This document shows positions 566 through 37,383 of a DNA stretch of 40,035 nucleotides, piece after piece; position 1 is the first letter of the stretch; every line of letters begins with the position of its first letter. This stretch comes from Oscillospiraceae bacterium. Lineage in GTDB: Bacteria > Bacillota > Clostridia > Oscillospirales > Ruminococcaceae. The position numbers were made by a program, and so were the translations under genes. The notes under the pieces were generated by a model. That model saw only the letters and a list, made by a program, of their open reading frames with translations, ran no database searches and was not told the DNA's origin. Location of the stretch: NCBI GenBank assembly GCA_016288755.1, contig JAEELE010000070.1, positions 1 through 40,035 of the forward strand. Reading direction: 5' to 3'.

Positions 566-859
566 CTACATAAATTCCTCCCAGATCGGTCTGGGCGGGG
601 ACGGCGCATATACTTCTGCCATTTTCCTCAACTCCCGGCACAGTGCCTCGGCGAACGCTTCCATGTGGACCCAGTCGGTACGGAGCGCGTCATATCTGCT
701 CCGGAATTCCTGACCGGTCTGATCCTCCCAGACGCCCGGGAGCTGTCCTGCAAGCCCGTCCAGCGTTTCGGCGGTGCTGCTCATATCTGCACACAGCCGG
801 CTGCAGACGTCCGAGAGCTCGCGCATTATCCTGTAAAGAATCATGTACCGATCTGTCAC
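566..859 (-). CDS. WXG100-like protein with degenerate motif (WED)
   Basis: A 97-residue helical protein in which the expected WXG turn reads W44-E45-D46 (GVWEDQTGQEF), so the glycine is replaced by aspartate. The length, the position after essC and the F/Y pattern after the turn match the WXG100 superfamily. The start is GTG at 857-859, overlapping the essC stop as GTGA, behind a strong AGGAGG site, so translation is probably coupled to EssC. It may be the heterodimer partner (EsxB-like) of the downstream WXG100 proteins; this is inference. Confidence 0.8.
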   Translation of the reverse strand: MTDRYMILYRIMRELSDVCSRLCADMSSTAETLDGLAGQLPGVWEDQTGQEFRSRYDALRTDWVHMEAFAEALCRELRKMAEVYAPSPPRPIWEEFM

Positions 860-5379: not shown

Positions 5380-5665
5380 TGCTGCCTCCCCGTTTCGTGA
5401 CATGGATGACCGTTCCGTCATACAGTCCGAATTCTGCGACCGTTTTGCCGCCCTTGACCAGTGTCACTGGATTTTCCGTCCGCAGATAGGCGTCCGGCGC
5501 ATTGTCTGCGTCCATGCCGAGCTGAAAGCCGTGGTTCAGCGCTGTCACAAGGTCATTGGCAGTGATGTGCAGCGGCACCTCGATATCAATGTCTTCTTCC
5601 CGGCTCTCTGCGTCGTTTTCATCCTTATAATGGATGCGCAGGATCATAACGGCAGTATTTTTCAT
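5363..5665 (-). CDS. YukD/EsaB-like ubiquitin-fold protein
   Basis: A 100-residue acidic protein starting MKNTAVMILRIHY, with a beta-grasp pattern and the segment DLVTALNHGFQLGMD followed by a G-L-Y-D-G-T turn near the C terminus, typical of the small ubiquitin-like YukD/EsaB proteins of T7SS loci. In known systems this protein is cytosolic and needed for, or regulates, secretion. It lies between the ParA-like ATPase (12-nt gap) and essC, whose start is inside its last codons. Assignment rests on fold pattern, size and position more than on strong identity. Confidence 0.8.
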   Translation of the reverse strand: MKNTAVMILRIHYKDENDAESREEDIDIEVPLHITANDLVTALNHGFQLGMDADNAPDAYLRTENPVTLVKGGKTVAEFGLYDGTVIHVTKRGGSSGEKV

Positions 5666-14303: not shown

Positions 14304-15857
14304 TTATGCCTTGAAGATCGCGCGCACGAAATTATAGATGTGCGCGGTGATGCAGTTGTCGCCGTGGTAGCCGCCCTGCACGACATGCCAGACATGCGGC
14401 GTACCCGCCTTGACAAAATTGTCGTGATAGCCCTGCGGCGTATTCAGACCGACCACGTCGTCGTTGGTGCCGCCGGTCAGCATGATCAGCGAGGGTGCAG
14501 CCTCCTCGCTGCCCCAGCTCCACGGACCCTCGACGCCCGGTGCCGGGCAGATCGCGCCGACGTAGGCGAAATGATCCGCGTACTTCATGCCGATGCGGAG
14601 CGACTCTCTGCCGCCCATGGAGAAGCCCGTGACCGCCGTGTTCTCCCTGCCGGTCGCAACGCTGTATTTGCTCTCGATATGCGGCATCAGGCTGTCCACA
14701 ATGTCATCGACGAAGTTGTCGTAGCCGACGCTGGATTCATAATCCTGAAAACTGGTCGCATCCTGCTTGGTCGGGTGCGTGAATACCCACGGCACGACCA
14801 CGATCATTTCCTCCGCCTCGCCCGCCGCGATCGCGTTGCAGATGATCTCCTTGGTGCGGATCGGCGGATTGTTGCCGGTCTTGATCATGCGGTCCTCGTT
14901 CTCGAAGAAGCCGTGCAGGATATACAGCACCGGATACTCCTGACTCTCGTCGTAGTCGGCGGGCAGCATGATGTTGTAGGGCTTTTGCTTGTTCGCCTTT
15001 TTGGAGAAGTAGGTCTCCTTTGTGATGGTACGGTCCGGAACGCCCGCGTGCAGGCTGTGCGAGTCATTCGGCTCCATCATGATCATCTGCTCCTCAACGA
15101 CCGGGGTATACTCCGAAATGGTGCGCAGCTCGCCCTTCGGCGGGGTCACGCGCTCCGGGAATTCCTTTGTCTGTGCGGTCAGATACTTCACGAACCATTC
15201 AATATCCGCCCTGTCGACCGTTCCGCTGAAATCGACGTCTGCCGCCTTCTGCACCTTCTTGTCGGAGAAGCCCTTGATCGCGCCCTTCTTGGCAAGCGAC
15301 AGGTCGCCGCCGGTGATGCAGCCGTCGCCGTCGAGATCGCCGAGCTTGATATAGGCGGACATGTCGCCCGATGCCTTCTGCTTGCTGAAGACGAAGCTGT
15401 CAATGTTCATCAGATAGCTGCTGCCGCCGGTGAACTTGATGTAGAGGTCGTGCTGCCCGACCGCGCCGCTGACATTGGCGGACACATCCTTGAAGGTCTG
15501 GAAGGCGCCGGTGCTCGGGACGGCAACAAAGCCGATCTGTGTGCCGGTCAGCGAGTCGATCCAGAATTCTGCCTTGCAGCCGCCGTCGGGAGAGCCGACC
15601 CTTGCGGACACGCTCTTCGCGCCGTCGCCGAAGTCGACATCGCTGAAAACGATGTAATCGCCGTTCTGGATATAGCCGACATCCTTGCCGCCGCTGTCCA
15701 GCGTTTCGATCTCAATGCCCTCCATCGCGGTGTAGTCCTCTGCCTCGATCCGTTCAAACGCATCGAACGATGCGGCTTCGGCGGAAATGCTGCCCAATGC
15801 CGCAAAGGACACGGCACCTGCCGCCAGAACGGAGATCATACGCCCCTTTTTTCTCAT
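14304..15857 (-). CDS. Secreted CBM6 - dockerin - CE1 esterase (feruloyl/acetyl-xylan esterase type)
   Basis: 517 residues. Signal peptide about 1-29. CBM6-like beta-sandwich about 31-157 (FERIEAEDYTAMEG..., NIDSFVF). Internal type I dockerin about 171-228 with loops GDLDGDGCITGGD and ADVDFSGTVDRAD. C-terminal alpha/beta hydrolase about 255-517 with oxyanion HGFFEN, nucleophile S413 (GFSMGG), probable Asp near 466 and His498 (GGYHGD), as in CE1 feruloyl or acetyl-xylan esterases. It would remove ferulate or acetyl groups from xylan beside the adjacent xylanase. The frame is open for 89 codons upstream, but the ATG at 15855-15857 begins the signal peptide and has AAGGGGA before it. Own weak promoter. 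Confidence 0.93.
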   Translation of the reverse strand: MRKKGRMISVLAAGAVSFAALGSISAEAASFDAFERIEAEDYTAMEGIEIETLDSGGKDVGYIQNGDYIVFSDVDFGDGAKSVSARVGSPDGGCKAEFWIDSLTGTQIGFVAVPSTGAFQTFKDVSANVSGAVGQHDLYIKFTGGSSYLMNIDSFVFSKQKASGDMSAYIKLGDLDGDGCITGGDLSLAKKGAIKGFSDKKVQKAADVDFSGTVDRADIEWFVKYLTAQTKEFPERVTPPKGELRTISEYTPVVEEQMIMMEPNDSHSLHAGVPDRTITKETYFSKKANKQKPYNIMLPADYDESQEYPVLYILHGFFENEDRMIKTGNNPPIRTKEIICNAIAAGEAEEMIVVVPWVFTHPTKQDATSFQDYESSVGYDNFVDDIVDSLMPHIESKYSVATGRENTAVTGFSMGGRESLRIGMKYADHFAYVGAICPAPGVEGPWSWGSEEAAPSLIMLTGGTNDDVVGLNTPQGYHDNFVKAGTPHVWHVVQGGYHGDNCITAHIYNFVRAIFKA

Positions 15858-15924
15858 GTGAATTCCCCTTTTCCGTGTGTATTTGTTAATAGTGCGGGAT
15901 GATTTGGTATATATCCCCATCATT

Positions 15925-15953
15925 ATGTTACCATTCACATTATTTTTGTACAA
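15925..15953 (-). promoter_or_regulatory. Possible promoter of the CE1 esterase gene
   Basis: On the minus strand TTGTAC (15948-15953), 17-nt spacer, TAACAT (15925-15930), about 68 nt before the start. Both boxes are imperfect. The -35 overlaps the palindrome TTGTACAA (15946-15953), the same 8-bp core as in the T7SS operator. Confidence 0.45.
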
Positions 15954-16057
15954 CTGCAAAAATGAAGAAAACATATCAAAACCGCAGATGTTTGCAGAAA
16001 AAGGGTCCCCGCCGGATGCAAGGCGGGGCAGCACTCCGGCAGCGTGCGCCCGACCGG

Positions 16058-16098
16058 CAGACAAAAACCGCCGCCTGCTCTCCCTGCAGACGGCGGTT
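16058..16098 (-). terminator. Rho-independent terminator of the small membrane protein gene
   Basis: On the minus strand AACCGCCG (16091-16098) pairs with CGGCGGTT (16066-16073), with an inner CTGC/GCAG pairing, then TTTTTGT. It starts 22 nt after the stop. A second GC stem (16007-16013 with 16022-16028) lies beyond it. Confidence 0.8.
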
Positions 16099-16120
16099 CG
16101 CTGTATGATGCATGACCGCT

Positions 16121-16396
16121 TCACTCGCGGAACAGATTGTTTTTCCGGCGGTCGACGGGATTTTTCTCATAGCGCTTTTTCCCGATCACATAGCGGATCC
16201 ATTTGATCAGCGTGATGAAAAAGGCATAGAACACCGATTCAAAGGCAATTTCACCGAAATCGAGCCGATAGGTCTCATGGATGAGGCGGAACCAGAGAAT
16301 GCGGACAAAAAACAGGACGACCAGCAAAAAGGAGAAGTGGATCATGAAGTAGAAGAGCCAGAAGGTCGGGGAGGAGCGTTTGAGGGCGATTTTCAT
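16121..16396 (-). CDS. Small membrane protein, 91 aa, two TM helices
   Basis: Not recognised by family. It begins MKIALKRSSPTFW, followed by a strongly hydrophobic aromatic-rich helix (about 11-36), a short polar loop, a second helix (about 48-68) and a basic C-terminal tail (KKRYEKNPVDRRKNN). The positive-inside rule puts both ends in the cytoplasm. It has a promoter and terminator of its own, which supports a real gene. It is divergent from the signalling operon at 16621 but there is no evidence that it takes part in it. Confidence 0.75.
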   Translation of the reverse strand: MKIALKRSSPTFWLFYFMIHFSFLLVVLFFVRILWFRLIHETYRLDFGEIAFESVFYAFFITLIKWIRYVIGKKRYEKNPVDRRKNNLFRE

Positions 16397-16520: not shown

Positions 16521-16549
16521 TTGAAATCGCGCTTTCTCTATGGTATAAT
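16521..16549 (+). promoter_or_regulatory. Sigma-A promoter of the signalling operon
   Basis: TTGAAA (16521-16526), 17-nt spacer, TATAAT (16544-16549). The ATG at 16621 follows a GGAGG site at about 10 nt spacing. It is divergent from 16454-16482. Confidence 0.85.
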
Positions 16550-16620: not shown

Positions 16621-18363
16621 ATGATCCGCATTTTTGTTGTAGATGACGATGCTGCAAACCTTCAGGTCGCTGAGCATATTCTGAACAAAAACGGCATGCA
16701 GGTGACGGCGCTGCGCTCCGGTCAGGCGCTGCTGGATCACATTGCGCCTCAGGAGCTGCCCGACCTGATCCTGCTCGATATCATGATGCCTCAGATGGAC
16801 GGCTTTGAGACGCTGAAGCGCCTGCGCCGGATGGAGCAGGAATGCGGCTTTCATGAGATTCCGGTGATCTTTCTGACCGCCGATGACACCGCCGCCACGG
16901 AGAAGCTCGGCTTTGAGGCGGGCGTCTCCGATTACATCCGCAAGCCCTTTAACCCGGAAATTCTGCTGCGGCGCGTGCACAATATTGTCTCGAAGGAGCA
17001 GCGCCTGAGCTCGCTGCGCACCGAGGCGGATACCGACAAGCTGACCGGCTTCCTGAACAAGGCTGCCTCGGCGCGTGCGATCGCCGGGTGCTGCGCCTCC
17101 GATATCGGCGCGCTGCTCATGATCGATCTGGATTCGTTCAAGCTGGTCAACGATCTCTACGGGCACAAAACAGGCGACAATGTGCTGATCTGCTTCGCGG
17201 CGATCCTGCGCGGCGCGGCGCCGAAAAACAGCAGGTTCGGGCGGATCGGCGGCGATGAGTTCATCGTCTTTGCGGGCGGCGTGCAGCGCGAGGAGGTTAT
17301 CACAGCGCTGACCGCAAAAATCAACGCGGACCTTGTCACAAAGGCAAAGGAGCTCATGGGCGACGATATGGATATCCCGCTCGGCGCCTCTGTGGGTGCG
17401 GTGTTTGTGCCGCGGCAGGGCGACGACTACGAGACACTCTTCCGCATGGCAGATCAGGCGCTCTACACGGTCAAAAAGAACGGAAAGCACGGCTGCGCGT
17501 TTTCTCACGGTGATTCCGGGCAGGCGCCCGAATCTGCAGGAAACAGCATCGAGCGCATTTCGGAGATCCTCGGCGAGCGTTCGATCCCGAATGTGGCGCT
17601 GCAGCTCGAGCGCGAAGCCTTCTCCTATGTCTACCGCTACATCATGCGCTATATGATCCGCAATCAGCGGTGCATCTATAAGGTGCTGTTCACGCTGACG
17701 CCCGCGGAGGGCAGCACTGAGCAGGTCTATACGGAGGAATGCGCGTCCTTCGGCGATCACATCCGCGAATCGCTGCGCAAGACCGACATTCTGATGCGCA
17801 GCCGGTTCAATCAGTATTTTGTGCTGCTGACCGATATCCGCGAGAGCGATATCAGCATCGTGATCGGCAATATCATGCGCAGATGGGAGCAGAACGGCAG
17901 CGGCGGGCTCTGCGTCAGCTATGAGACGGAATTTGTCAGCATGCCCTCCCGCCCGCTGCGAAAGGCATCCGAAATGCGGATCGCCGTTGCAGAGAGCGAT
18001 GATGCAGTGCTGCGGGAGATCGGCACGGCACTGAGCGGCGCGGGCTTCCGTGTCGCGGCGGTGAAGACCGGCAGGGCGCTGCAGAAATATCTCGCGGACA
18101 ATACTGTCGACCTGACCGTGCTCGACCTCACACTGCCGGACACGGACGGGCTCGCGCTTTGCAGACAGCTCTGCTCCGGCACGGCGCCGGTGCTCGTGCT
18201 GACGGACGACGCGCGCGGCAGTGCAGCCGCCGGGGCGCTGGAGCTCGGTGCGGAGGAGCTGCTGGAAAAGCCGGTCGACCGCCGTCTGCTGGTGCACCGC
18301 GTCAGACGTCTGACAGAGCTTGCGGAGCTGCGGCGAAGCTGCCGCGGCGGCAGGAAGGATTGA
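16621..18363 (+). CDS. Response regulator REC-GGDEF-(unknown)-REC, predicted diguanylate cyclase
   Basis: 580 residues, cytosolic. REC1 1-122: acidic cluster D8-D9-D10, phosphoacceptor D53, T86, K108. GGDEF domain about 130-296: DxLTGFLN at its start and an intact GGDEF at 210-214, so c-di-GMP synthesis is expected. The inhibitory RxxD site is not seen (PKNS). Residues about 310-440 form an unrecognised region that may be a degenerate GGDEF-like fold. REC2 about 452-570 keeps D502 and K550. Two receivers on one cyclase suggest integration of two phosphate inputs, likely from the kinases encoded just downstream (10-nt gap, then overlap). First gene of the operon. Confidence 0.92.
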   Translation: MIRIFVVDDDAANLQVAEHILNKNGMQVTALRSGQALLDHIAPQELPDLILLDIMMPQMDGFETLKRLRRMEQECGFHEIPVIFLTADDTAATEKLGFEAGVSDYIRKPFNPEILLRRVHNIVSKEQRLSSLRTEADTDKLTGFLNKAASARAIAGCCASDIGALLMIDLDSFKLVNDLYGHKTGDNVLICFAAILRGAAPKNSRFGRIGGDEFIVFAGGVQREEVITALTAKINADLVTKAKELMGDDMDIPLGASVGAVFVPRQGDDYETLFRMADQALYTVKKNGKHGCAFSHGDSGQAPESAGNSIERISEILGERSIPNVALQLEREAFSYVYRYIMRYMIRNQRCIYKVLFTLTPAEGSTEQVYTEECASFGDHIRESLRKTDILMRSRFNQYFVLLTDIRESDISIVIGNIMRRWEQNGSGGLCVSYETEFVSMPSRPLRKASEMRIAVAESDDAVLREIGTALSGAGFRVAAVKTGRALQKYLADNTVDLTVLDLTLPDTDGLALCRQLCSGTAPVLVLTDDARGSAAAGALELGAEELLEKPVDRRLLVHRVRRLTELAELRRSCRGGRKD

Positions 18364-18373
18364 GGGAAAGCCT

Positions 18374-21040
18374 ATGAAGCGAATTGAAAAAAATGATCTG
18401 TTTCAGGTCTCGCAGCTCACCATTCTGATCTGCTTTACGGTCTTCACCGGGCTGCTGGCCGGCGAGACCTTCCTGATGGGCTGGGAAACATGGGCGCTGC
18501 TCCCCATTGTCACCGGGCTGATCCTCTCGTGGGTCCTGCATCTGCAGCAGCGCTTCACCGCGACCGCACGGATCTGGTTCTGCGCGGCGTTCATCATGTT
18601 TGCGGTGCTGTTCCACGGCTGCCACCCCACAAGCGTCTTCGATACGGTCGCAGTGATGGCGGTGGTGCTGACCCTCTGCACCATGGCGTGCATGAAATCG
18701 CTGATCACCGTGCTGCAGCTTGTCTACTACGTCACGCTCGGGTACGGGCTGTTTGCGATGTACCGCAGCGGCGAGCAGTTTGACAGCCTGATCATTTCGC
18801 GGGCGGTGCTGCACTTTGCGGCGATCACGACGATCAGCGTGGTGTCGCGCACGACCATCGACCGCTGGCTCGCGACGGTCGAGGCATCACACGGCGAGAT
18901 CGAAAAGCTGACCGACGCAACGGAGCGGCTGAACGATTTTCTCGCGAATGTCTCGCACGAGACGCGCACGCCGATCAATGCGATCATCGGGCTGACCGGC
19001 ATCTGCATTGATGCGGAGGAGGACCCCGAGCGGCTCGAAAATCTCGATTCCGTGCGCAAGGCGGGCAGAAGGGTCGCCGAGCAGATCGGCGATATCCTCG
19101 ATTTCACGGAGATCGACCGCGGCAGGCTGACGAACAACTACGAGGACTACATGCTCTCCTCGGTGCTCAACGATCTCGTCGCGGAGATCCGCCCCTATAA
19201 GCCGAAGGAGCTCGAGCTCGTCATTGACGTCGACCCGGCGATCCCCTCGGTGATGAACAGCGATATCGGCAAGCTGCGGAAGATTCTGCGGCACCTCATT
19301 ATGAACGGGCTGAAATACACGCAGGAGGGCGGCGTTTACGTCCGGCTCTATGCGATCCCGGAGAGCTACGGCGTCAATCTGGTCATCCGCGTGACGGACA
19401 CGGGCATCGGCATGACCGAGGAGGAGACCGAGCGCGTCTTTGAGCGCTATTATCAGGTGGATTCCGGCAGAACGCGGAAGGGCGGCGGGCTCGGGCTCGG
19501 CATGACGATCGTGCGCGGCTTCACCACGGCGCTGGGCGGCTTTGTGACGATCAGCAGCGAGCCCGATGTCGGCACGACGGTCAGCGTCAGTCTGCCGCAG
19601 AAGGTCATTGCGCCCGCGAGCTGCATGTCGCTCAAGGCGCCGGAGAAGCTCTGCCTCGGCGCGTTCCTGCATCTCGACAAATACGCTGACCCCAATGTCC
19701 GCGAATATTACAACATGATGATCCACAACATCGTCAAGGGCTTCGGCATCCAGATGCACCGCGTGGACAATGCCGCAAACCTCGAAAAGCTGCTGCAGTC
19801 CGTGCGGCTGACGCATCTGTTCGTCAGCGAGGAGGAATATGAGACGGCACAGGCGATGATCGAGAAGGCGGCGGCGCAGATGGTCGTGGTCGTGGTCGCG
19901 AATCAGGATTTCGTGCTGCCTGCGGATTCCCGGGCACGGATCATGGAAAAGCCGTTCTACTGCTTCCCGGTGGCTGCCGTGCTCAATGCGGACGAATCCG
20001 AGCCGGTCACGGACGAGGTGCTCCGCTTCGACGGCGTGCGTGCGCTGGCGGTCGACGACGAGCCGATGAACCTGACCGTCGCACAGAATATCCTGCGGCG
20101 CTACGGCATCACGGTCACGTCGGCGAATTCCGGCGCGGAGGCACTGGAGCTCTGCCGCGACCGTGAATTCGACATCGTCTTCATGGACCACATGATGCCC
20201 GGCATGGACGGCATCGAGACGATGAAGCGCATCCGTGCGGGGAATCTCAAGTGCCGGAGCGATGTCCCGGTCGTCGCGCTCACTGCAAATGCCGTCAGCA
20301 CGGCGAGAGAGACCTTCCTTGCGAGCGGCTTCGACGGCTTTGTCAGCAAGCCGATCGAGCTGGTCGAGCTGGAGCGCGTGCTGCGGCGCGTGCTGCCTGT
20401 CTCCTCCGCCGCAATTCCGGCAGAGCAGCCGCAGCAGACAGTGACGCCGCCGGCGGAGGAGGACAGCGCCGCGCTCATCCGGCGGGCAGCTGCATGCGGT
20501 CTGGATACCGCATCGGCACTGACCTACTGCGCGGACGACCCGGATTTCTATGTGATGCTGCTGCGGCAGTTCATCGGCGAGACCGCGGAAAAGCTCGAAA
20601 ATATGGATGCATTTCTCAGGGAAAACGACCTTGTCAACTACGAGATCATTGTGCACGCACTGAAAAACACGCTGAAGCTGATCGGCGCCGACGCGCTCTC
20701 GGAGCAGGCGAAGGAAATGGAATTTGCCGCGAAGGCGGAGGATTCCGCACTGATCGCGGAAAAGCACGGCGCGCTCGCCGATGCCTGCCGGTTGCTGACG
20801 TCGAAGCTCGCTGCATTTCTCGGCGAACCGGAGCCTGCACAGGAAGACGGGGTGACCGAATTTGCACCTGATGAGACAGCAACCGGATCGGAAGCCGATG
20901 ACGCAGTAACTGAATTTGAACCTGCCGGTGCGGAGGACGGTGTGACGGAATCTGCACCGGACGGCGGCGGGGACGCGGATGACACCGTCATCGAATTTGC
21001 ACCGGAGGACGGAGAGGAGGATGCAAGTGAAAAGCCGTAA
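18374..21040 (+). CDS. Hybrid histidine kinase: 5-6 TM - HisKA - HATPase - pseudoREC - REC - HPt - acidic repeat tail
   Basis: 888 residues. Hydrophobic helices about 12-165 form a membrane sensor with no clear extracellular domain. A short coiled linker leads to HisKA with H195 (NVSHETRTP) and an HATPase with N311, DTGIGM (342-347) and GGGLGLG (370-376). Residues about 424-540 look like a receiver without the phosphorylation Asp. A true REC follows (D560, D561, phosphoacceptor D605, K659), then an HPt domain with H761 (HALKNTLKLIG). The last 65 residues are an acidic tail with four imperfect copies of a DGVTEFAPD-like unit (about 825-877). The HPt can pass phosphate to the REC domains of the neighbouring cyclase. 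Start at 18374 is 10 nt after the previous stop; weak GAGG site. Confidence 0.93.
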   Translation: MKRIEKNDLFQVSQLTILICFTVFTGLLAGETFLMGWETWALLPIVTGLILSWVLHLQQRFTATARIWFCAAFIMFAVLFHGCHPTSVFDTVAVMAVVLTLCTMACMKSLITVLQLVYYVTLGYGLFAMYRSGEQFDSLIISRAVLHFAAITTISVVSRTTIDRWLATVEASHGEIEKLTDATERLNDFLANVSHETRTPINAIIGLTGICIDAEEDPERLENLDSVRKAGRRVAEQIGDILDFTEIDRGRLTNNYEDYMLSSVLNDLVAEIRPYKPKELELVIDVDPAIPSVMNSDIGKLRKILRHLIMNGLKYTQEGGVYVRLYAIPESYGVNLVIRVTDTGIGMTEEETERVFERYYQVDSGRTRKGGGLGLGMTIVRGFTTALGGFVTISSEPDVGTTVSVSLPQKVIAPASCMSLKAPEKLCLGAFLHLDKYADPNVREYYNMMIHNIVKGFGIQMHRVDNAANLEKLLQSVRLTHLFVSEEEYETAQAMIEKAAAQMVVVVVANQDFVLPADSRARIMEKPFYCFPVAAVLNADESEPVTDEVLRFDGVRALAVDDEPMNLTVAQNILRRYGITVTSANSGAEALELCRDREFDIVFMDHMMPGMDGIETMKRIRAGNLKCRSDVPVVALTANAVSTARETFLASGFDGFVSKPIELVELERVLRRVLPVSSAAIPAEQPQQTVTPPAEEDSAALIRRAAACGLDTASALTYCADDPDFYVMLLRQFIGETAEKLENMDAFLRENDLVNYEIIVHALKNTLKLIGADALSEQAKEMEFAAKAEDSALIAEKHGALADACRLLTSKLAAFLGEPEPAQEDGVTEFAPDETATGSEADDAVTEFEPAGAEDGVTESAPDGGGDADDTVIEFAPEDGEEDASEKP

Positions 21041-23720
21041 AATCATGGATTATGTGCTGAACGATCACCGCGATCTGCGCGACAGGCTGTTTGTGCTGAT
21101 GTCTGCGGTCATGCTGCTGTCCTGCTGCATCACGCTGGTTGTCCATCTGTTCTCCGGCACAAATCTGCGCAGCATTCTGATTCCGGCGGCTGCCATGCTG
21201 GTACTGACCGTTGTCACCATGCTTTGCATCCGTGCGGACCGTGTCCGTCTGGGCGCAATTATCGTTTCGGCAGATATCAGCCTGATCTATGCGCCGGTGT
21301 TGTTTTTCTTCAGCGGCGGTCTGAACGGCGAAGCGCCGCTCTGGTTCCTGTTCGGATTCTTCTTCCTCAATATTTGTCTGGACGGCAAGGTCAAATATGC
21401 GGTTCTGCTGCTGGAGCTTGCCGAAGCGATCGGATGCTGGTATATTTCGCTGCAGTATCCCGCGCTGATTACCTCGAATACCTCTTTGTGGGCACACACC
21501 TTCTCATTGCTGGCGCTGCTTCTGATCGCTGCCTCCATGAGCATCATGATCGGGTTCCGCAATGCGTTCTTCCAGCGGGAGATGGCACATTCCCGCGCAC
21601 AGCAGAAGGAGATCGAGGCGCTCAGCGAGGCGCAGAATCACTTTTTCTCGAGCATGAGCCATGAGATCCGCACGCCGATCAACACGATCATCGCGCTGAA
21701 CGAAATGATCCTGCGCGAGAACATCTCCGAAGAGGTCGCGGAGGATGCGGCGAATATCCAGTCCGCGAGCAAAATGCTGCTGCATCTCATCAATGATATT
21801 CTCGACATGTCGAAGTTCGCCTCCGGTCAGATGAAGCTCACACCGACGGTCTATCATCCGGGCGACATGCTCTCCGAGATCGTCGGGATGCTGTGGATCC
21901 GGGCGAAGGAAAAGCAGCTCGATTTTCAGGTCAATGTCTCGTCGGACCTGCCCGCTGAGCTGCTCGGCGACGAGATCCGCATCAAGCAGATTCTCATCAA
22001 TGTGCTGAACAACGCGATCAAATACACCAACGAGGGCTCCGTGTCGCTGTCGATCCAGCCCGGCGAGACCGAAAACGGTCTGCTCAACGTGATCTATTCG
22101 GTCAGCGACACCGGCATCGGCATCAAGAAGGAGAATATCCCCTATCTGTTCACGGCGTTCAAGCGCGTGGACGAGCAGCAGAACCGGCATATCGAGGGCA
22201 CCGGGCTCGGGCTCTCCATCGTGCAGCAGTTCGTCGACCTCATGGGCGGGCGGATCACCGTCAACAGCATCTACACCAAGGGCTCGACCTTCATCATTGA
22301 GATTCCGCAGAAGGCGGTCGGCACGCAGCATATCGGCGAGATCACCATCGACAGCGGGCAGACCGCGTTCAAGCGGCAGACGCATTTCTCCGGGTTTGAG
22401 GCGCCCGAGGCAAAGGTGCTGGTCGTGGACGACAACGCGCCGAATCTGCTGGTCGTCTCCAAGCTCCTCCGCGACACCAAGGTGCAGGTCGACACCGTGC
22501 CGAGCGGCGAGGAGGCGCTGAAGCGCACTCTGAATCAGTATTATCATGTGATCTTCATGGATCACCTGATGCCGCACATGGACGGCATCGAGTGCCTGCG
22601 TGCGATCCGTTCGCAGATCGGCGGGCGCTGCAAGGAGTCCAAGATCGTCGCGCTGACGGCAAATGCGGGCAGCGAAAACCGCATCCTCTACGAAAAAGAG
22701 GGCTTTGACGGCTACCTGACCAAGCCGATCACCGGCGATGTGATCGAAAAGGAGCTCTACCGGCTGCTGCCGCGTGACCTGACTGTCGTGCGCGGGAGCG
22801 GCGAGGAGATTCTGCAGGAGACGATCTCGTGGATGAAGCGTGAGCAGCGCAAGAAGACGGTCGCCATCACGACCGAGAGCGTCGCCGATCTGCCGCAGGA
22901 GATCATCGAGCGATACGGGATCGCGGTGCTGCCGCATCTGGTGCGCACGGCAGAGGGCAGCTTCATGGACGGCATCGAGATCGAGACAAGGGGTCTGCTC
23001 GATTACATGCAGGACCTCTCGCGGAAGGTCGTCACGCGCGTCCCCTCTGTGGAGACTGTCGAGGCATTCTTTGCCAAGCAGCTCACCACTGCGAACAATA
23101 TCATCCACGTCTCGATCTCCGGCGACCTTGCAAACAGCGGCTGTCCGGTCGCAATGGAGGCTGCAAAGGCATTCAACAATGTGACGGTCATTGATTCGGG
23201 GCATCTCTCCAGCGGGCAGGGTCTCATGGTGATCGAGGCGTGCCGGCTGGCGGAGGAGGGCAGGAGCCCGGACGAGATCAAGGCGCATCTGGAGAAGATC
23301 AAGCCGAAAATCCACACGAGCTTTGTGGTCGACAGCCTTGATTTTCTGGCGCGCTGCGAGCAGGTCAGCAGCCGGGTCGCCCGCGTGACGAAATCGCTGA
23401 TGGCAAGACCGGTCCTGTCGCTGCGGCACGGTAAAATGGGCGTCGGCAAGGTGTATTTCGGTGCACGGGAGCGCGCATGGAAGCACTATATCGACTCGGT
23501 GCTGCGGAACCCCGCGGAGATCGACAAGCGCATCCTGTTCGTGACCTATGTCGGCATCACCAAGCGTGAAATGGACTGGATCCGGCAGCAGGTGGAGAAG
23601 CACATGACCTTTGACCGCATCTATTTTCAGCAGGCGTCGCCGGTCATTGCCGTGAACTGCGGCGACGGCACCTTCGGGCTGCTGATCCGCGAAGCAGACG
23701 GCTATGCCGGCGGACCGTGA
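21021..23720 (+). CDS. Hybrid histidine kinase fused to DegV fatty-acid-binding domain
   Basis: 899 residues. N-terminal 5-6 helices (about 23-180), HisKA with H214 (SMSHEIRTP), HATPase with N330-N331, DTGIGI (363-368) and GTGLGLS (393-399), REC with D470-D471, phosphoacceptor D514 and K568. Then residues 612-892 form a full-length DegV-like domain: TTESVADLP, TRVPS, SISGDLANSG, VIDSGHLSSGQG and RPVLSLRHGKMG line up with the DegV landmarks that cradle a fatty acid, though the Gly-Gly-Arg loop reads C-E-Q. DegV/FakB proteins present fatty acids for phosphorylation. Here it may sense lipid. The gene overlaps the previous one by 20 nt. ATG at 21021 and GTG at 21027 are both possible behind GGAGAGGAGG. 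Last gene of the operon. Confidence 0.92.
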   Translation: MQVKSRKIMDYVLNDHRDLRDRLFVLMSAVMLLSCCITLVVHLFSGTNLRSILIPAAAMLVLTVVTMLCIRADRVRLGAIIVSADISLIYAPVLFFFSGGLNGEAPLWFLFGFFFLNICLDGKVKYAVLLLELAEAIGCWYISLQYPALITSNTSLWAHTFSLLALLLIAASMSIMIGFRNAFFQREMAHSRAQQKEIEALSEAQNHFFSSMSHEIRTPINTIIALNEMILRENISEEVAEDAANIQSASKMLLHLINDILDMSKFASGQMKLTPTVYHPGDMLSEIVGMLWIRAKEKQLDFQVNVSSDLPAELLGDEIRIKQILINVLNNAIKYTNEGSVSLSIQPGETENGLLNVIYSVSDTGIGIKKENIPYLFTAFKRVDEQQNRHIEGTGLGLSIVQQFVDLMGGRITVNSIYTKGSTFIIEIPQKAVGTQHIGEITIDSGQTAFKRQTHFSGFEAPEAKVLVVDDNAPNLLVVSKLLRDTKVQVDTVPSGEEALKRTLNQYYHVIFMDHLMPHMDGIECLRAIRSQIGGRCKESKIVALTANAGSENRILYEKEGFDGYLTKPITGDVIEKELYRLLPRDLTVVRGSGEEILQETISWMKREQRKKTVAITTESVADLPQEIIERYGIAVLPHLVRTAEGSFMDGIEIETRGLLDYMQDLSRKVVTRVPSVETVEAFFAKQLTTANNIIHVSISGDLANSGCPVAMEAAKAFNNVTVIDSGHLSSGQGLMVIEACRLAEEGRSPDEIKAHLEKIKPKIHTSFVVDSLDFLARCEQVSSRVARVTKSLMARPVLSLRHGKMGVGKVYFGARERAWKHYIDSVLRNPAEIDKRILFVTYVGITKREMDWIRQQVEKHMTFDRIYFQQASPVIAVNCGDGTFGLLIREADGYAGGP

Positions 23721-24180: not shown

Positions 24181-26529
24181 CTACATCCCTCCTGTGAGCA
24201 GTCCGATCAGATGCACCAGCAGCGCCGCGATCCATGCGACCGCACACTGCCAGACAGCGACCGCCGCTGCCCATTTTGTGCCGAGCTCGCGCTTCACCGC
24301 CGCGATCGCCGCGACGCAGGGCGTATAGAGCAGCGAGAACACCAGCAGGCACGCTGCCGAAAGCGCGGTCATCGACGCGGTCACGCCGCCGCTGTAGAGG
24401 ATCTCCAGCGTGGAAACGACGCTCTCCTTTGCCATGAAGCCGCTGACGAGCGCGACCAGAATCCGCCAGTCGCCGAGCCCGACCGGGCGCATGATCGGTG
24501 CGAACAGCCCCGCGGCAGCCGCCAGAATGCTCTGCTCCGCATCCTCGACCATGTGCAGATGCAGATCGAAGCGCTGCAAAAACCACACCGCGACCGTCGC
24601 GATCAGAATGACCGAGAACGCCCGCTGCAGAAAGTCCTTTGCCTTCTCCCAGAGCAGCTGCGCGACATTGCGCAGACCCGGCAGACGGTAATTCGGCAGC
24701 TCCATCACAAAGGGCACTGCCTCGCCCTTGAAGAGCGTCCCCTTATAGAACACCGCCGCGAGAATGCCGGTCACGATGCCGAGCAGATAGAGCCCGACCA
24801 TGATCAGCCCGCCGCGTCCCGGGAAGAACGCACTGACGAAAAACGCATAGATCGGCAGCTTTGCCGTGCAGCTCATGAAGGGCGTCAGCAAAATCGTCAT
24901 TTTGCGGTCGCGGTTGCTTGGCAGCGTGCGCGTTGCCATGACCGCGGGCACCGAGCAGCCGAAGCCGATCAGCAGCGGCACGATGCTCCGCCCCGAGAGC
25001 CCGATCCTGCGCAGCAGCTTATCCATGAAGAACGCGACACGCGCGATATAGCCGCTGTCCTCGAGCATCGAGAGGAAGAAGAACAGCGTCACGATGATCG
25101 GCAGGAAGCTCAGCACACTGCCCACGCCCGCGAAGATGCCGTCGATGATCAGGCTGTGTATGACGGGATTCGTGTCCGCGGCGGTCAGGGCGCTGTCTGT
25201 CCATGCGGTCAGCGCGTCGATGCCCGCCTCACAGAGCCCCTGCAGAAAGGCGCCGATCACATTGAAGGTCAGGAGGAACACCGCCGCCATGATCAGAATA
25301 AACATCGGAATGGCGGTGTATTTGCCGGTCAACACCCTGTCGATGCGGCGCGACCGGATATGCTCGCGGCTCTCGGTCGGCTTGGTCACCGCCTCGCTGC
25401 ACACGCGCATGATGTACGAAAAGCGCATGTCCGCGATCGCGGCGTTGCGGTCGAGCCCGCGCTCGCGCTCCATCTGCAGCACAAGGTGTTCGATCGCTTC
25501 GCGCTCGTTTTCGTCGAGATCAAGCTTCCGGATGATGTGGGGGTCGCCCTCGATGACCTTGCTCGCGGCAAACCGCAGCGGAAGCCCCGCACGCTCGGCG
25601 TGATCCTCGATCAGGTGAATGACGCTGTGGATGCAGCGGTGCACCGCGCCGCCGTTTTCGGATTTTTCGCAGTAATCCTGCGGCACCGGGCGCTCCTGAT
25701 TCTGCGCGATGTGCAGCGCGTGCGCGACCAGCTCGTCGACGCCCTCGTTTTTCGCCGCGGAGATCGGCACGACCGGCACGCCGAGCATCTGCTCCATGCG
25801 GTTGACGTCGATGCCGCCGCCGTTCGCACTGAGCTCATCCATCATGTTGAGCGCGACGACCGTCGGGATATCCATTTCGAGCAGCTGCATCGTCAGATAG
25901 AGATTGCGCTCGATGTTGGTGACGTCGACGATGTTGATGACCGCGTGCGGCTTTTCGTCGAGCACGAAATTGCGCGAGACGATCTCCTCGCGCGTATAGG
26001 GCGACATGGAATAGATGCCGGGCAGATCGGTGATGACGGTATCGGGGCAGCCCCTGATCGCGCCGTCCTTGCGGTCGACGGTGACGCCGGGGAAGTTGCC
26101 GACATGCTGCTTCGAGCCGGTCAGCCGGTTGAAGAGGGTGGTCTTGCCGCTGTTCTGGTTGCCGACCAGCGCGAATTTCAGCACGGTGCCCTCGGGGAGC
26201 GGGTCGCCGTCGCCCTTGGCGTGAAAGCGTCCGTCCTCGCCGAGACCGGGGTGCTCGGTCTTGCGGCGCGGGTTTTTCTTTGCCGCGGGCTTCTGCGCCT
26301 CGCCGATCGGCGTGACCTCGATCTGCGCGGCGTCGTCGAGACGGAGCGTGAGCTCGTAGCCGTGCAGCCGCAGCTCGACCGGGTCGCCCATCGGGGCATA
26401 TTTCACGACGGTGACCGCCGTACCGGGAATCAGTCCCATATCGAGGAAATGCTGCCGGAGTGCGCCGTCGCCGCCGAGCACCTCGATACGCGCAGACTGT
26501 CCGGGCTTGATCTCTCTGAGTGTGTCCAT
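24181..26529 (-). CDS. feoB: FeoA-FeoB fusion, ferrous iron transporter
   Basis: 782 residues. Residues 1-75 are a complete FeoA (SH3-like) domain, which is usually a separate protein. A basic linker (about 78-112) joins it to FeoB: G protein domain with G1 GNQNSGKT (123-130), G2 T150, G3 DLPG (168-171) and G4 NMMD (228-231), then a helical GDI-like region and a membrane domain with the two Gate segments (GSVLSFLPIIVTLFFFLSML; FGCSVPAVMATR, TPFMSCTAKLPIY). It imports Fe2+ across the cytoplasmic membrane. Own promoter at 26572-26600. I see no convincing Fur or DtxR box, though iron control is likely. Followed by the Cys-rich partner. Confidence 0.96.
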   Translation of the reverse strand: MDTLREIKPGQSARIEVLGGDGALRQHFLDMGLIPGTAVTVVKYAPMGDPVELRLHGYELTLRLDDAAQIEVTPIGEAQKPAAKKNPRRKTEHPGLGEDGRFHAKGDGDPLPEGTVLKFALVGNQNSGKTTLFNRLTGSKQHVGNFPGVTVDRKDGAIRGCPDTVITDLPGIYSMSPYTREEIVSRNFVLDEKPHAVINIVDVTNIERNLYLTMQLLEMDIPTVVALNMMDELSANGGGIDVNRMEQMLGVPVVPISAAKNEGVDELVAHALHIAQNQERPVPQDYCEKSENGGAVHRCIHSVIHLIEDHAERAGLPLRFAASKVIEGDPHIIRKLDLDENEREAIEHLVLQMERERGLDRNAAIADMRFSYIMRVCSEAVTKPTESREHIRSRRIDRVLTGKYTAIPMFILIMAAVFLLTFNVIGAFLQGLCEAGIDALTAWTDSALTAADTNPVIHSLIIDGIFAGVGSVLSFLPIIVTLFFFLSMLEDSGYIARVAFFMDKLLRRIGLSGRSIVPLLIGFGCSVPAVMATRTLPSNRDRKMTILLTPFMSCTAKLPIYAFFVSAFFPGRGGLIMVGLYLLGIVTGILAAVFYKGTLFKGEAVPFVMELPNYRLPGLRNVAQLLWEKAKDFLQRAFSVILIATVAVWFLQRFDLHLHMVEDAEQSILAAAAGLFAPIMRPVGLGDWRILVALVSGFMAKESVVSTLEILYSGGVTASMTALSAACLLVFSLLYTPCVAAIAAVKRELGTKWAAAVAVWQCAVAWIAALLVHLIGLLTGGM

Positions 26530-34530: not shown

Positions 34531-35199
34531 TCAGCCGCCGAATTTTGCCTGCCAGAGCGCCAGTGCCGCGAGCGTGAAGCCGTCGGTCACGGCACCCGCT
34601 GCGATTTTTTCACGGAGCTCCTCCGCACCGAGCAGCACACAGCGCAGAATGCCCTCGTGCCCCTCTGCGCACTGCGGACGGCTCACCGTGCAGAAATAGA
34701 CCTCAGCCTGCGTGCTCATCATGCCGCTGTCCGGCGCGACCGTGCCCAGCAGCATCACGCTCTGCACCTGCGCGCCGATCTCCTCGGAAAGCTCCTTGTG
34801 CAGATTCTGCTCGGCGGTCAGCCCGGGCTCGCCGAAGCCGCGCGGAAACGCCAGCTGCTCGCCGCGGATCGCATGGCGATACTGCCGCAGCAGCACAAAT
34901 TTCCCGTCATACATCGGCAGACTGACGACCCCGCCGGTCTGCGCCGGGACCAGCCGCTCATAGGCAAAGCGGTTTCCCGCGCCGTCCTCCACCAGATCGA
35001 CGACCATCATCGAATAGCGGCTCTCATAGACCACACCGATCACGCGGCCCGTGCGGCGGCAGAATTCCCGCACTGCCTGCTCGTCGGTGATGACCCGGAG
35101 CACATCGGACGCCGCAAACAGCGCCGGGCGCTCCTCCTGCAGACGGCAGTAGCGTGCCCATGCGCGCGCCTGCGCATCACTCTGCGAATTCGTGTGCAT
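34531..35199 (-). CDS. Nudix hydrolase, ADP-ribose pyrophosphatase-like, with altered Nudix box
   Basis: 222 residues. N-terminal beta region (VIGVVYESRYSMMVVDLVED) resembles ADP-ribose pyrophosphatases, with VSLPMYDGKFVLLRQYRH before the Nudix box and PDSGMMSTQAEVYF after it. The box spans G121-A143. The metal-binding K-E-L-S-E-E-I-G part is intact apart from Lys for Arg at 135, but the first conserved Glu is L127. Likely a cytosolic hydrolase of ADP-ribose or another nucleoside diphosphate derivative. Its start lies inside the last codons of the TIR gene (23-nt overlap), so the two are co-expressed, which suggests linked NAD/ADP-ribose chemistry (inference). Confidence 0.85.
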   Translation of the reverse strand: MHTNSQSDAQARAWARYCRLQEERPALFAASDVLRVITDEQAVREFCRRTGRVIGVVYESRYSMMVVDLVEDGAGNRFAYERLVPAQTGGVVSLPMYDGKFVLLRQYRHAIRGEQLAFPRGFGEPGLTAEQNLHKELSEEIGAQVQSVMLLGTVAPDSGMMSTQAEVYFCTVSRPQCAEGHEGILRCVLLGAEELREKIAAGAVTDGFTLAALALWQAKFGG

Positions 35200-37240
35200 G
35201 TGTTGTCAACCCCTCCAGAATCTGATGATATGCCGTGCGCCCCGACTGCAGCAGAATGCCCTCGAACAGGCGCAGCTTCTCCATAAATGCGTCCTCCGCA
35301 TCGCAGACGGAGAGATAATCGCCGCAGACAAACTCGATCACGAGGTTTTCGCGGAGATTGTCCGAGAGCTTCTCCTCATGCTCGCGCCGGATGCGGATGA
35401 CATCGCTGCCCTCGCGGTAGACCGTGATGAGCCTGCACCCGCCGAAGGAATAGATCACCGACAGGCTGCCCGGCTCCTTTCGCATGCGGCAGTGCGGGAG
35501 CGCCGCGGCACATGCTGCCGTCAGCCGCCGGAAGCGCCGCCACACGACCTCCACATCGTGAAAGTCGATCTCGTTGAGGCTGGCGCGCTTGCGGGAGGCG
35601 TCGCGTGCCTCGAGATAGGCGGTCCATTCCGGCATCCGGCGAATGCATGCGATATCCGCGAGCGAGAGCGCAGGGCACTCCGCCAGATAGGATTCCTTGA
35701 GAAAGCCCGGCACAAAGTTGATGACGGCGCAGTAGAGCTCGTCTGCCGAGATCACGCGGAGATTCTGCTCGCCCCGCTGCTCGGACATGTAATAGTCCCA
35801 CAGGCAGCTCTCATAGCTCGAGATCGGCGTGATGTGCAGTGCGGTCGGCAGATTGATCATATAGGTGAAGTCGATGATCTGCTTGAGCTCGCAGACAAAG
35901 GGCTTCGTGTAATCGAGCTGACAGTCGGTAACACGCGAGCCGCTCCGCACGAGAAAATCGAGATAGACGCTGTTGCGCGTATAGCTGCCCGGGCGCTCGT
36001 CATCGCGCGCGACGGCGGTGTCGCGCAGCCTGCGCCAGAGCGCCGCAAACTCCCCTGCGCGCTCCTGCGGCACGCCCATCGCGAGCCGGAAGGATTCGAG
36101 GCGGTGCCGGTCGTTGCCGGTCGTCAGCAGCAGATTCATCATGCGCATCGAGAGCGTCCGCGCGATCTCAAAGCTGTTCGCCTCGTCGTCCGTGTCGATG
36201 CCGTCCCAGCTCATGCGGATGCAGTAGACCGCGTGCTGCCGGCAGATCTCCCGCCAGCGCGCAAACTGCTCCTCCGCGACGTCGAAGCGCGGGCGCTCGA
36301 CCGGCGTGCGCTCCTTCATCAGATACATGACGAAGGAGCCGTTCTGCAGCAGCTCGCAGAAGGCGCGCGCGTTGTCGCCGTCGCCCATGTACCAGTCCGC
36401 GATTGCCTCGGAATTGAACACCGAAGCACGGTTGATCAGCACCTGCCAGTTGTGCAGCAGTGCGCTGATCACCTCGTATTGCTGCATCTGTTTGCGCTTT
36501 TCGGTCAGCGACGGCGCACAGAAGCCCTCTGCCCGGAAAGCCGGGTCATCAAAGAATTCCGGCGGCACCCACTGGTTGTCCATGCAGATCGGGTAGACCG
36601 CGTTCGGGTCGGTCTCGCCGACATTGAGCGCATAGAACGTGATGCCGTCCTCCTCGCGCTTTTCCGGCAGCGCGTAGGGGTAGATGTAATCCGATTCGGC
36701 GTCGACCTCGCTGAGCCCGAGCAGCCCGCTCTCGGACTGACCCTGTGCAGCCTGCGCCAGCTCGTCGGGCGTCATGCAGGCGCTCCAGATGCCGGCACCG
36801 GTCAGCACCTCGAGAAAATCGACCGTGATGCCGCGGAAATTCGCGGCGGAAATATACTGCACGGTGTTGAACAGCTCAATGATATCGGCAAATTCCGGGC
36901 GCCCGAACAGATGCTGGATCGGCACGCGCTCGAGCATGATGACAAAAATCCTGTAATCGGGGTTTTCGCTGCGCTTCCCGATCGCCATGCGGATCTCGCG
37001 GATGATCTCGCCGCGCTGCTCGATGCCGTTCGTCATGAACAGGATAAAAGCGGTGCTGCTCTGCAGGCGCTCGTTGATCGCGTCCTGCCAGTCCGCGCTG
37101 TACTCGATGCCGTGGTCATACCAGAACCGTCTGCCGTTCTGGTTCAGCACGCGCAGCAGCGATTCGACCTTTGCCATATCCGCGTGGGAATAGCTGATGA
37201 ATGCGAAGGGCAGCTGCCCCTGATACGCCATAGTGCTCAT
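35177..37240 (-). CDS. TIR-domain protein with large unrecognised C-terminal region
   Basis: 687 residues. Residues about 8-150 form a TIR domain: FAFISYSHAD (box 1), RFWYDHGIEYSADW, STAFILFMTNGI, then E82 in IIREIRMAIG, a candidate for the catalytic Glu of NAD-cleaving TIRs. The remaining 500-plus residues are not recognised; they are mixed alpha/beta, soluble and rich in acidic and aromatic residues. No signal peptide. ATG at 37238-37240 lies 9 nt from GGGAGG and is preferred; ATG at 37244-37246 is also possible. A strong promoter precedes it. The Nudix gene overlaps its 3' end, and a Clp unfoldase is divergent. A stress or anti-phage NADase role is possible but unproven. Confidence 0.88.
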   Translation of the reverse strand: MSTMAYQGQLPFAFISYSHADMAKVESLLRVLNQNGRRFWYDHGIEYSADWQDAINERLQSSTAFILFMTNGIEQRGEIIREIRMAIGKRSENPDYRIFVIMLERVPIQHLFGRPEFADIIELFNTVQYISAANFRGITVDFLEVLTGAGIWSACMTPDELAQAAQGQSESGLLGLSEVDAESDYIYPYALPEKREEDGITFYALNVGETDPNAVYPICMDNQWVPPEFFDDPAFRAEGFCAPSLTEKRKQMQQYEVISALLHNWQVLINRASVFNSEAIADWYMGDGDNARAFCELLQNGSFVMYLMKERTPVERPRFDVAEEQFARWREICRQHAVYCIRMSWDGIDTDDEANSFEIARTLSMRMMNLLLTTGNDRHRLESFRLAMGVPQERAGEFAALWRRLRDTAVARDDERPGSYTRNSVYLDFLVRSGSRVTDCQLDYTKPFVCELKQIIDFTYMINLPTALHITPISSYESCLWDYYMSEQRGEQNLRVISADELYCAVINFVPGFLKESYLAECPALSLADIACIRRMPEWTAYLEARDASRKRASLNEIDFHDVEVVWRRFRRLTAACAAALPHCRMRKEPGSLSVIYSFGGCRLITVYREGSDVIRIRREHEEKLSDNLRENLVIEFVCGDYLSVCDAEDAFMEKLRLFEGILLQSGRTAYHQILEGLTTHAHEFAE

Positions 37241-37282
37241 AGACATACACCTCCCGGTTGTTGCGCGGATGCCCGCATCTCT

Positions 37283-37311
37283 ATTATACCATGTCTGCGG
37301 GGGGATTGCAA
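37283..37311 (-). promoter_or_regulatory. Sigma-A promoter of the TIR-Nudix operon
   Basis: On the minus strand TTGCAA (37306-37311), 17-nt spacer, TATAAT (37283-37288), about 43 nt before the TIR start. Confidence 0.8.
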
Positions 37312-37337
37312 GAGCCTGCGCAGACGGTTCACAAAAA

Positions 37338-37383
37338 GCGGGACCCGCTGCAAAGAGTAATCCGGCAAACTCCTGCATATACT
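37338..37383 (+). promoter_or_regulatory. Palindrome and possible -10 box of the Clp gene
   Basis: AGCGGG-A-CCCGCT (37338-37350) is a 6-bp dyad. TATACT (37378-37383) is a plausible -10 box, but no good -35 is seen at 16-18 nt, so an activator or another sigma factor may be needed. It is not the known CtsR or CIRCE operator. Confidence 0.4.

Follow-up and report, generated by a model that had tools for sequence, protein, structure and literature searches.

What does a DegV domain, a fold known from free-standing lipid carriers, do at the end of a hybrid histidine kinase? We addressed this question for contig JAEELE010000070.1, positions 1–40,035, of an Oscillospiraceae bacterium (GCA_016288755.1); this whole stretch of 40,035 nucleotides is referred to below as the window. 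The fused kinase, named gene C here, belongs to a three-gene set (genes A, B and C) that is complete in the window at 16621–23720. An earlier note, made from the DNA letters, had taken gene C to be a lipid-linked kinase and had leaned towards sensing rather than delivery. We examined the architecture and fold of gene C, its recurrence and gene neighborhood, and the residues of its DegV pocket.

Architecture and fold of the fused kinase

The frame at 21021–23720 is single and open throughout, and Pfam placed four domains in it in the order HisKA (residues 205–268, 1.3e-15), HATPase_c (316–431, 6.2e-27), Response_reg (466–577, 2.3e-20) and DegV (614–889, 6.8e-44, with 150.7 bits against a cut-off of 27), in agreement with the earlier reading of one polypeptide running from membrane helices to DegV. 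The NCBIfam DegV model TIGR00762 matched as well, its score of 171.2 bits exceeding the cut-off of 99.7. Residues are numbered from ATG 21021; the likelier start is GTG 21027, as the AGGAGG at 21015–21020 abuts the ATG but sits 6 bases ahead of the GTG. The features of gene C are as follows.

21021..23720, plus strand: gene C, membrane-HisKA-HATPase-receiver-DegV hybrid kinase, 899 aa from ATG 21021, overlapping gene B
21075..21575, plus strand: six long helices read as membrane-spanning, from the secondary structure of the full-length model and the hydrophobic sequence
21633..21824, plus strand: HisKA domain (Pfam), with phospho-acceptor H214 at 21660–21662, His in 42/42
21966..22313, plus strand: HATPase_c domain (Pfam), with N331, D363 and G395 in 42/42
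22416..22751, plus strand: receiver (Pfam), with D514 at 22560–22562; D470, D514, T546 and K568 in 42/42
22791..22847, plus strand: linker between receiver and DegV, residues 591–609, of low confidence in the full-length model
22860..23687, plus strand: DegV/FakB-fold domain, residues 614–889 (Pfam, structure model, Foldseek)

Gene C carries the signature of a hybrid histidine kinase, comprising the HisKA histidine, the N and G boxes of the HATPase and the Asp, Thr and Lys of the receiver. All eight phosphorelay residues (H214, N331, D363, G395, D470, D514, T546 and K568) are kept in 42/42 near-full-length fused proteins, taken from 90 fused rows, and the assignments of H214 and D514 made in the earlier note were right. 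In the full-length model, the sixth N-terminal helix is continuous with that of the kinase, and an extracellular domain was not seen; the N-terminal helices are predicted to insert into the membrane. Two residues of the linker behind the receiver, E600 and W604, are nearly invariant. The full-length model had a pTM of 0.40, at which contacts of DegV with kinase or receiver are not reliable, and its interdomain contacts were discarded.

The DegV domain was modeled separately with AlphaFold2 from a 51-row alignment, giving a mean pLDDT of 92.1 and a pTM of 0.90. Foldseek matches 1–45 to this model were DegV-type structures, FakBs among them, and several had been solved with a fatty acid. The best match was 2dt8 (6.2e-25, TM 0.85, 27% identity), and the same 2dt8 chain was the best PDB match by sequence alone (7.7e-24). 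By this model, the C-terminal domain of gene C is a genuine DegV/FakB fold, as the earlier note had supposed; a predicted structure lacking that fold, which the note had named as grounds for refutation, was not what the modeling gave.

Spread of the fusion and order of its genes

A scan of named genomes (GTDB) gave 594 pattern matches, 573 of which were relatives. Counts of named loci below refer to the best 80 of these 573 relatives and therefore lean towards the window. The fusion was present in 80/80 of these best loci, which rules out an assembly artifact or the frameshift that the earlier note had considered; the fused architecture is real and conserved, a family rather than a singleton. 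The best 80 loci were titled Oscillospiraceae, Lachnospiraceae, Ruminococcus, Saccharofermentans and others, and many of the titles named ruminant gut sites, rumen included. Within the same family, at least 9/197 genomes, the window's own included, had a nearly full-length match. In the class sample, matching open frames of ≥700 residues occurred in at least 9/391 genomes, and of these matches, besides the window, that of one genome (G283, locus L129) was domain-checked. Within the genus, 5 of 13 genomes had an above-cut-off DegV match in an open frame of >600 residues. The phylum sample (149 genomes) was searched at a strict limit of E 1e-60, which would miss remote forms; the window's genome had the only long-frame match, and the one other match was free-standing. 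The fused family thus looks patchy and centered on gut Clostridia. No description of a DegV–kinase fusion was found in the literature searched, a body that leaves out most subscription papers, so that one could be in print elsewhere. The excerpts of PMC3146951 and PMC12688256 that were covered do not treat the fusion, and a passage of PMC12288450 states that multidomain proteins can include DegV as one domain.

Ahead of gene C, the window holds a promoter-like site and the other two genes of the set.

16521..16549, plus strand: sigma-70-like promoter, TTGAAA-17-TATAAT with TG ahead of the −10 (consensus match only)
16621..18363, plus strand: gene A, 580 aa, receiver-GGDEF-X-receiver (Pfam)
18374..21040, plus strand: gene B, 888 aa from ATG 18374 (Pfam), overlapping gene C

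The promoter-like site matches the consensus at 11/12 positions, is the best of 6 such sites found (2.5 expected in shuffles) and ends 71 bases upstream of gene A. Given the gene B start at ATG 18374, the gap between A and B is 10 bases. Gene A consists of a receiver (4–119), a GGDEF domain (136–289, with the GGDEF motif at 210–214), an unnamed stretch (about 290–420) and a second receiver; a domain search gave no HD match in the window's copy, which has no HD-GYP. An RxxD inhibitory motif is known ahead of GGDEF domains; in the window's gene A, this site was not at its usual place. The roughly 130 residues that follow GGDEF are common to gene A relatives and gave neither a Pfam match nor a PDB sequence match at E 1. 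Gene B has a hydrophobic N-terminal part followed by HisKA (H195), HATPase, an insert, a receiver (D605) and Hpt (H761). Its relay residues H195, N311, D342, D561, D605, T637, K659 and H761 are kept in 71/71 proteins, counted over those longer than 780 residues in which all three domains were matched.

Directly upstream of gene C, a gene ending in receiver and Hpt was found in 74/80 of the best loci (best 80 of 573). The full gene B order was seen in 70 of these 74; the N-terminal match was missing in 3, and one (L093) had only receiver-Hpt at a contig end. The upstream gene overlaps gene C in 54/74, and by exactly 4 bases in 47. Among the other six loci, L039 has B together with a gene C split into two frames, L089, L114 and L116 start at a contig end or close to one, L105 shows one receiver-Hpt piece and one receiver piece upstream, and in L095 nothing was seen upstream of the fused gene.

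A gene with GGDEF and/or HD-GYP stood next upstream of B in 57 of the 74 loci (again from the best 80 of 573). Its forms were receiver-GGDEF-X-receiver-HD-GYP (36/74), the window's form without HD-GYP (7/74), receiver-HD-GYP (6/74), receiver-GGDEF-X (5/74) and other GGDEF or HD-GYP forms (3/74). In 8/74, gene B lay ≤300 bases from the contig end, and in 9/74 no gene A was seen upstream despite room, one of these (L045) having a gene A relative downstream of C instead. Across the gene A proteins of these loci, the GGDEF motif was intact in 49/49 and the HD-GYP motif HHExx[DN]GxGY in 40/45. Eight relatives came from the family search; gene B was present in seven, the eighth being cut by its contig, and a lone receiver took the place of gene A in four. 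The three-gene relay probably controls cyclic di-GMP, although this would not always be its output, given the lone receiver in 4/8 relatives and the 9/74 loci in which no gene A was seen. The form of gene A varies while the order of B and C is constant (L026–L030, L032 and L037–L116). An additional kinase-receiver-Hpt gene ahead of gene A makes a four-gene block in L052, L053, L055, L056, L059, L060, L062 and L084.

The genes flanking the operon lie on the other strand. To the left (14304–16124) is an esterase with a dockerin and CBM6, a combination that suggests a cellulosome-forming bacterium, and to the right (24181–26529) a fused FeoA-FeoB gene. Elsewhere in the window, the minus strand at 859–5421 encodes a 1521-residue protein with two FtsK/SpoIIIE stretches, which we take to resemble a type VII secretion motor, and beyond it lie four plus-strand frames that Pfam did not match. 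A 733-residue TIR-domain protein is encoded at 35180–37378 on the minus strand, adjoining a gene for a ClpA/B-type ATPase.

Pocket residues of the DegV domain

The FakB carriers provide a residue-level standard for the fused domain. According to passages of PMC8892158, Arg173 is required for the kinase reaction and conserved in FakBs, Arg205 binds FakA, and His270, Thr62, Ser95 and Ser171 form the carboxylate network of FakB. Equivalent positions in gene C were assigned by alignment through FakB2.

23355..23363, plus strand: C779-E780-Q781, equivalent to carrier residues 171, 172 and Arg173 (alignment)
23457..23459, plus strand: F813, equivalent to carrier Arg205, the FakA-binding residue (alignment)
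23655..23657, plus strand: N879, equivalent to carrier His270 of the carboxylate network (alignment)

These positions were compared between 90 fused rows, which comprise 89 distinct domains (L025 and L042 are identical), and 51 free DegVs, high scorers that lean towards canonical members. The Arg173 position, Gln781 in the window, is Gln in 81/89 and Arg in 4/89 fused domains versus Arg in 51/51 free DegVs; relatives L026–L032 account for seven of the eight exceptions to Gln. At the Arg205 position, Phe813 in the window, Phe was found in 71/89 and Arg in 1/89 fused domains, compared with Arg in 49/51 free DegVs. The His270 position, Asn879 in the window, is Asn in 87/89 fused domains (of the other two, one has Gly and one is cut by a contig end) and His in 49/51 free DegVs. 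Where most free DegVs have a Gly-Gly-Arg loop, the window has Cys-Glu-Gln (779–781), as the earlier note had read it, and the residue 171 position is Ala in 61/90 fused rows versus Gly in 48/51 free DegVs.

Elsewhere in the carboxylate network, the Thr62 column, where the alignment is unsafe, holds Thr in 38, Pro in 39 and Ser in 11 of the 90 fused rows. In the SSGLSG stretch, either the first Ser, kept in 85/90, or the third, kept in 7/90, could be Ser95; as the first is a candidate for it, the network is probably not wholly gone. The fused DegV domains have a mean column identity of 68%, and the motifs HLSSGQG and NCGxGTFG are nearly invariant among them. They also have residues of their own, with H639, H728, Q781, W820, Y843 and N879 present at ≥90% in the fused clade and absent or rare in free DegVs, which argues that the substitutions are not decay.

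Judged by its residues, the fused domain is not a working FakB. That it nevertheless feeds a fatty acid kinase from the membrane is hardly credible: the DegV family match would suit such a role, as would the FakA-type domain found in 183/197 genomes of the family, fusion carriers such as G071 included, but Arg173 and Arg205 are present in 51/51 and 49/51 free DegVs as opposed to 4/89 and 1/89 fused domains, and the same genome has three free DegV genes. Those three further genes are in the window's own assembly, where no match to the FakA-type domain (PF13684) was found at 94.7% completeness. Because 183/197 family genomes have one, an assembly gap is the likelier explanation of the missing FakA, and FakA loss was set aside as the reason for repurposing.

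The earlier note had offered two roles for phosphorylation and lipid, one of them a hand-off of lipid under control of the kinase. Hand-off to a fatty acid kinase is disfavored, as the docking and catalytic arginines are lost. In its more general form, phosphorylation of D514 would open or close the DegV pocket and so control lipid delivery or storage. DegV does sit behind the receiver, a frequent place of output domains, yet we consider this improbable, with the FakA-binding Arg205 and the catalytic Arg173 gone in nearly all members and with a receiver-joined enzyme output already in the operon. The preference of the earlier note for sensing, drawn from the loop, gains in weight: the change from Gly-Gly-Arg to Cys-Glu-Gln belongs to a series of replacements seen across the clade, at Arg173, Arg205 and His270, and these hit the residues that a carrier needs for the fatty acid kinase and for the carboxylate.

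As the carboxylate residues are replaced, an ordinary free fatty acid is uncertain as ligand. With His270 changed, and residue 171 too in most members, the pocket may accept a different ligand or none at all. In the latter case, the DegV domain would have become a conserved module for docking or dimerization, bringing gene C to B, to A or to the membrane. Replacement of both functional arginines and His270, the new near-invariant residues (for example, W820, E681 and Y843) and the three loci in which an unfused DegV gene also adjoins a hybrid kinase are all compatible with such a module. Nonetheless, we regard it as unlikely, because the whole fold is predicted with high confidence, HLSSGQG and NCGxGTFG are nearly invariant, and the swapped positions include known head-group ones, a pattern that suits a changed ligand equally.

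Proposed origin and mechanism, and known systems

To place the fused domains among DegVs, a midpoint-rooted tree of 86 domains was built, with 30 of the 90 fused rows sampled. The 30 fused domains form one clade (100/99), which together with three unfused DegVs directly adjoining a hybrid kinase forms a further clade (100/99) and branches among the sampled DegVs. The kinases beside two of the unfused DegVs are nearer to gene B than to gene C (L034, 335.5 versus 267.9 bits; L035, 334.4 versus 277.7 bits) and have the gene B insert; that of L033 is alike to B and C (310.4 and 310.9 bits) and matches the insert weakly. The L035 row combines a B-like kinase, a separate DegV and a receiver-GGDEF gene. 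As the simplest history, we propose that a DegV gene was recruited beside a kinase and later fused once to a second kinase; this stays a proposal, since it draws on three unfused rows, one of them long-branched, and on midpoint rooting. The DegV domain of gene C would accordingly descend from a FakB-type carrier that was first separate beside a hybrid kinase and then joined to a HisKA-receiver kinase.

Our preferred reading, which we hold with about even confidence, is that a FakB-type carrier was uncoupled from the fatty acid kinase and repurposed as the cytosolic ligand sensor of a cyclic di-GMP phosphorelay. Genes A, B and C would be co-transcribed as one phosphorelay, in which both B (with Hpt) and C (with DegV) are membrane hybrid kinases. 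Phosphate would pass through the receivers of B and C and the Hpt of B, in an order that we can only suggest, to the receiver or receivers of A, which would set the activity of GGDEF (and, in many relatives, of HD-GYP) and thereby the cyclic di-GMP level. The DegV domain is most likely a cytosolic module for binding a lipid or amphiphile, and its loaded or empty state may shift the kinase/phosphatase balance or the receiver exchange of C, in either direction. Alternatively, the real sensor could lie in the membrane helices of B or C.

A more specific version, which we put forward tentatively, is a lipid-sensing phosphorelay to cyclic di-GMP in gut and rumen Clostridia, built on the plan of the DSF circuit RpfC/RpfG but with a retired fatty-acid carrier as receptor. 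Here, the DegV domain of gene C would sample a lipid at the inner face of the membrane, its rebuilt head-group site (N879, Q781 and perhaps H728 and H639) would select something other than an ordinary free fatty acid, and loading would gate the relay. The fused arrangement, which recurs in dozens of related gut bacteria, may represent a novel type of lipid sensor. If so, it would define a class of kinase-linked lipid sensors made from a repurposed metabolic carrier, in gut bacteria that include fiber degraders and have few characterized signals. DegV proteins of obscure role would gain a testable second function, membrane-lipid state would be joined to cyclic di-GMP, and substitutions at Arg173, Arg205 and His270 would provide a simple sequence test for telling likely sensors from carriers.

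Among known systems, the closest in fold are the FakB/DegV proteins (PF02645, TIGR00762), including 2dt8 from Thermus and FakB1 and FakB2 of S. aureus, which share it across the whole domain. The gene C domain differs from them in lying inside a hybrid kinase, in the replacement of Arg173, Arg205 and His270 and in an operon without a FakA gene. For the kinase-receiver part of gene C, the best NCBIfam matches were of BarA/TorS type, below the curated cut-offs; to our knowledge, hybrid kinases of this type do not end in DegV. A remote fold match was DhaQ, a relative of DhaK (PDB 2iu4 and 2iu6; Foldseek 7.2e-8 and TM 0.49 for 2iu6). DhaQ acts in a regulator role and is an earlier case in which a protein that holds the substrate of a kinase became a sensor, although it works with a transcription factor rather than a histidine kinase and is not a DegV protein.

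The nearest parallel in signaling is the Rpf system, in which, according to excerpts of PMC5391125, the fatty acid DSF directly activates the hybrid kinase RpfC (with receiver and Hpt), whose partner is the HD-GYP phosphodiesterase RpfG. Gene B has the same parts as Xanthomonas RpfC, namely membrane helices, kinase, receiver and Hpt, and gene A of some relatives is likewise receiver-HD-GYP as in Xanthomonas RpfG. Membership in the Rpf/DSF system was rejected: a search of the window's assembly (94.7% complete) for RpfF-type proteins (crotonase family) found nothing that matched ECH_1 at E 0.001, and the window's gene A is without HD-GYP, so RpfC/RpfG is a likeness rather than a membership. In contrast to RpfG, gene A usually contains GGDEF, the window's copy having no HD-GYP. 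The operon also differs from RpfC/RpfG in gene C itself, a second hybrid kinase with DegV, a lipid-carrier fold.
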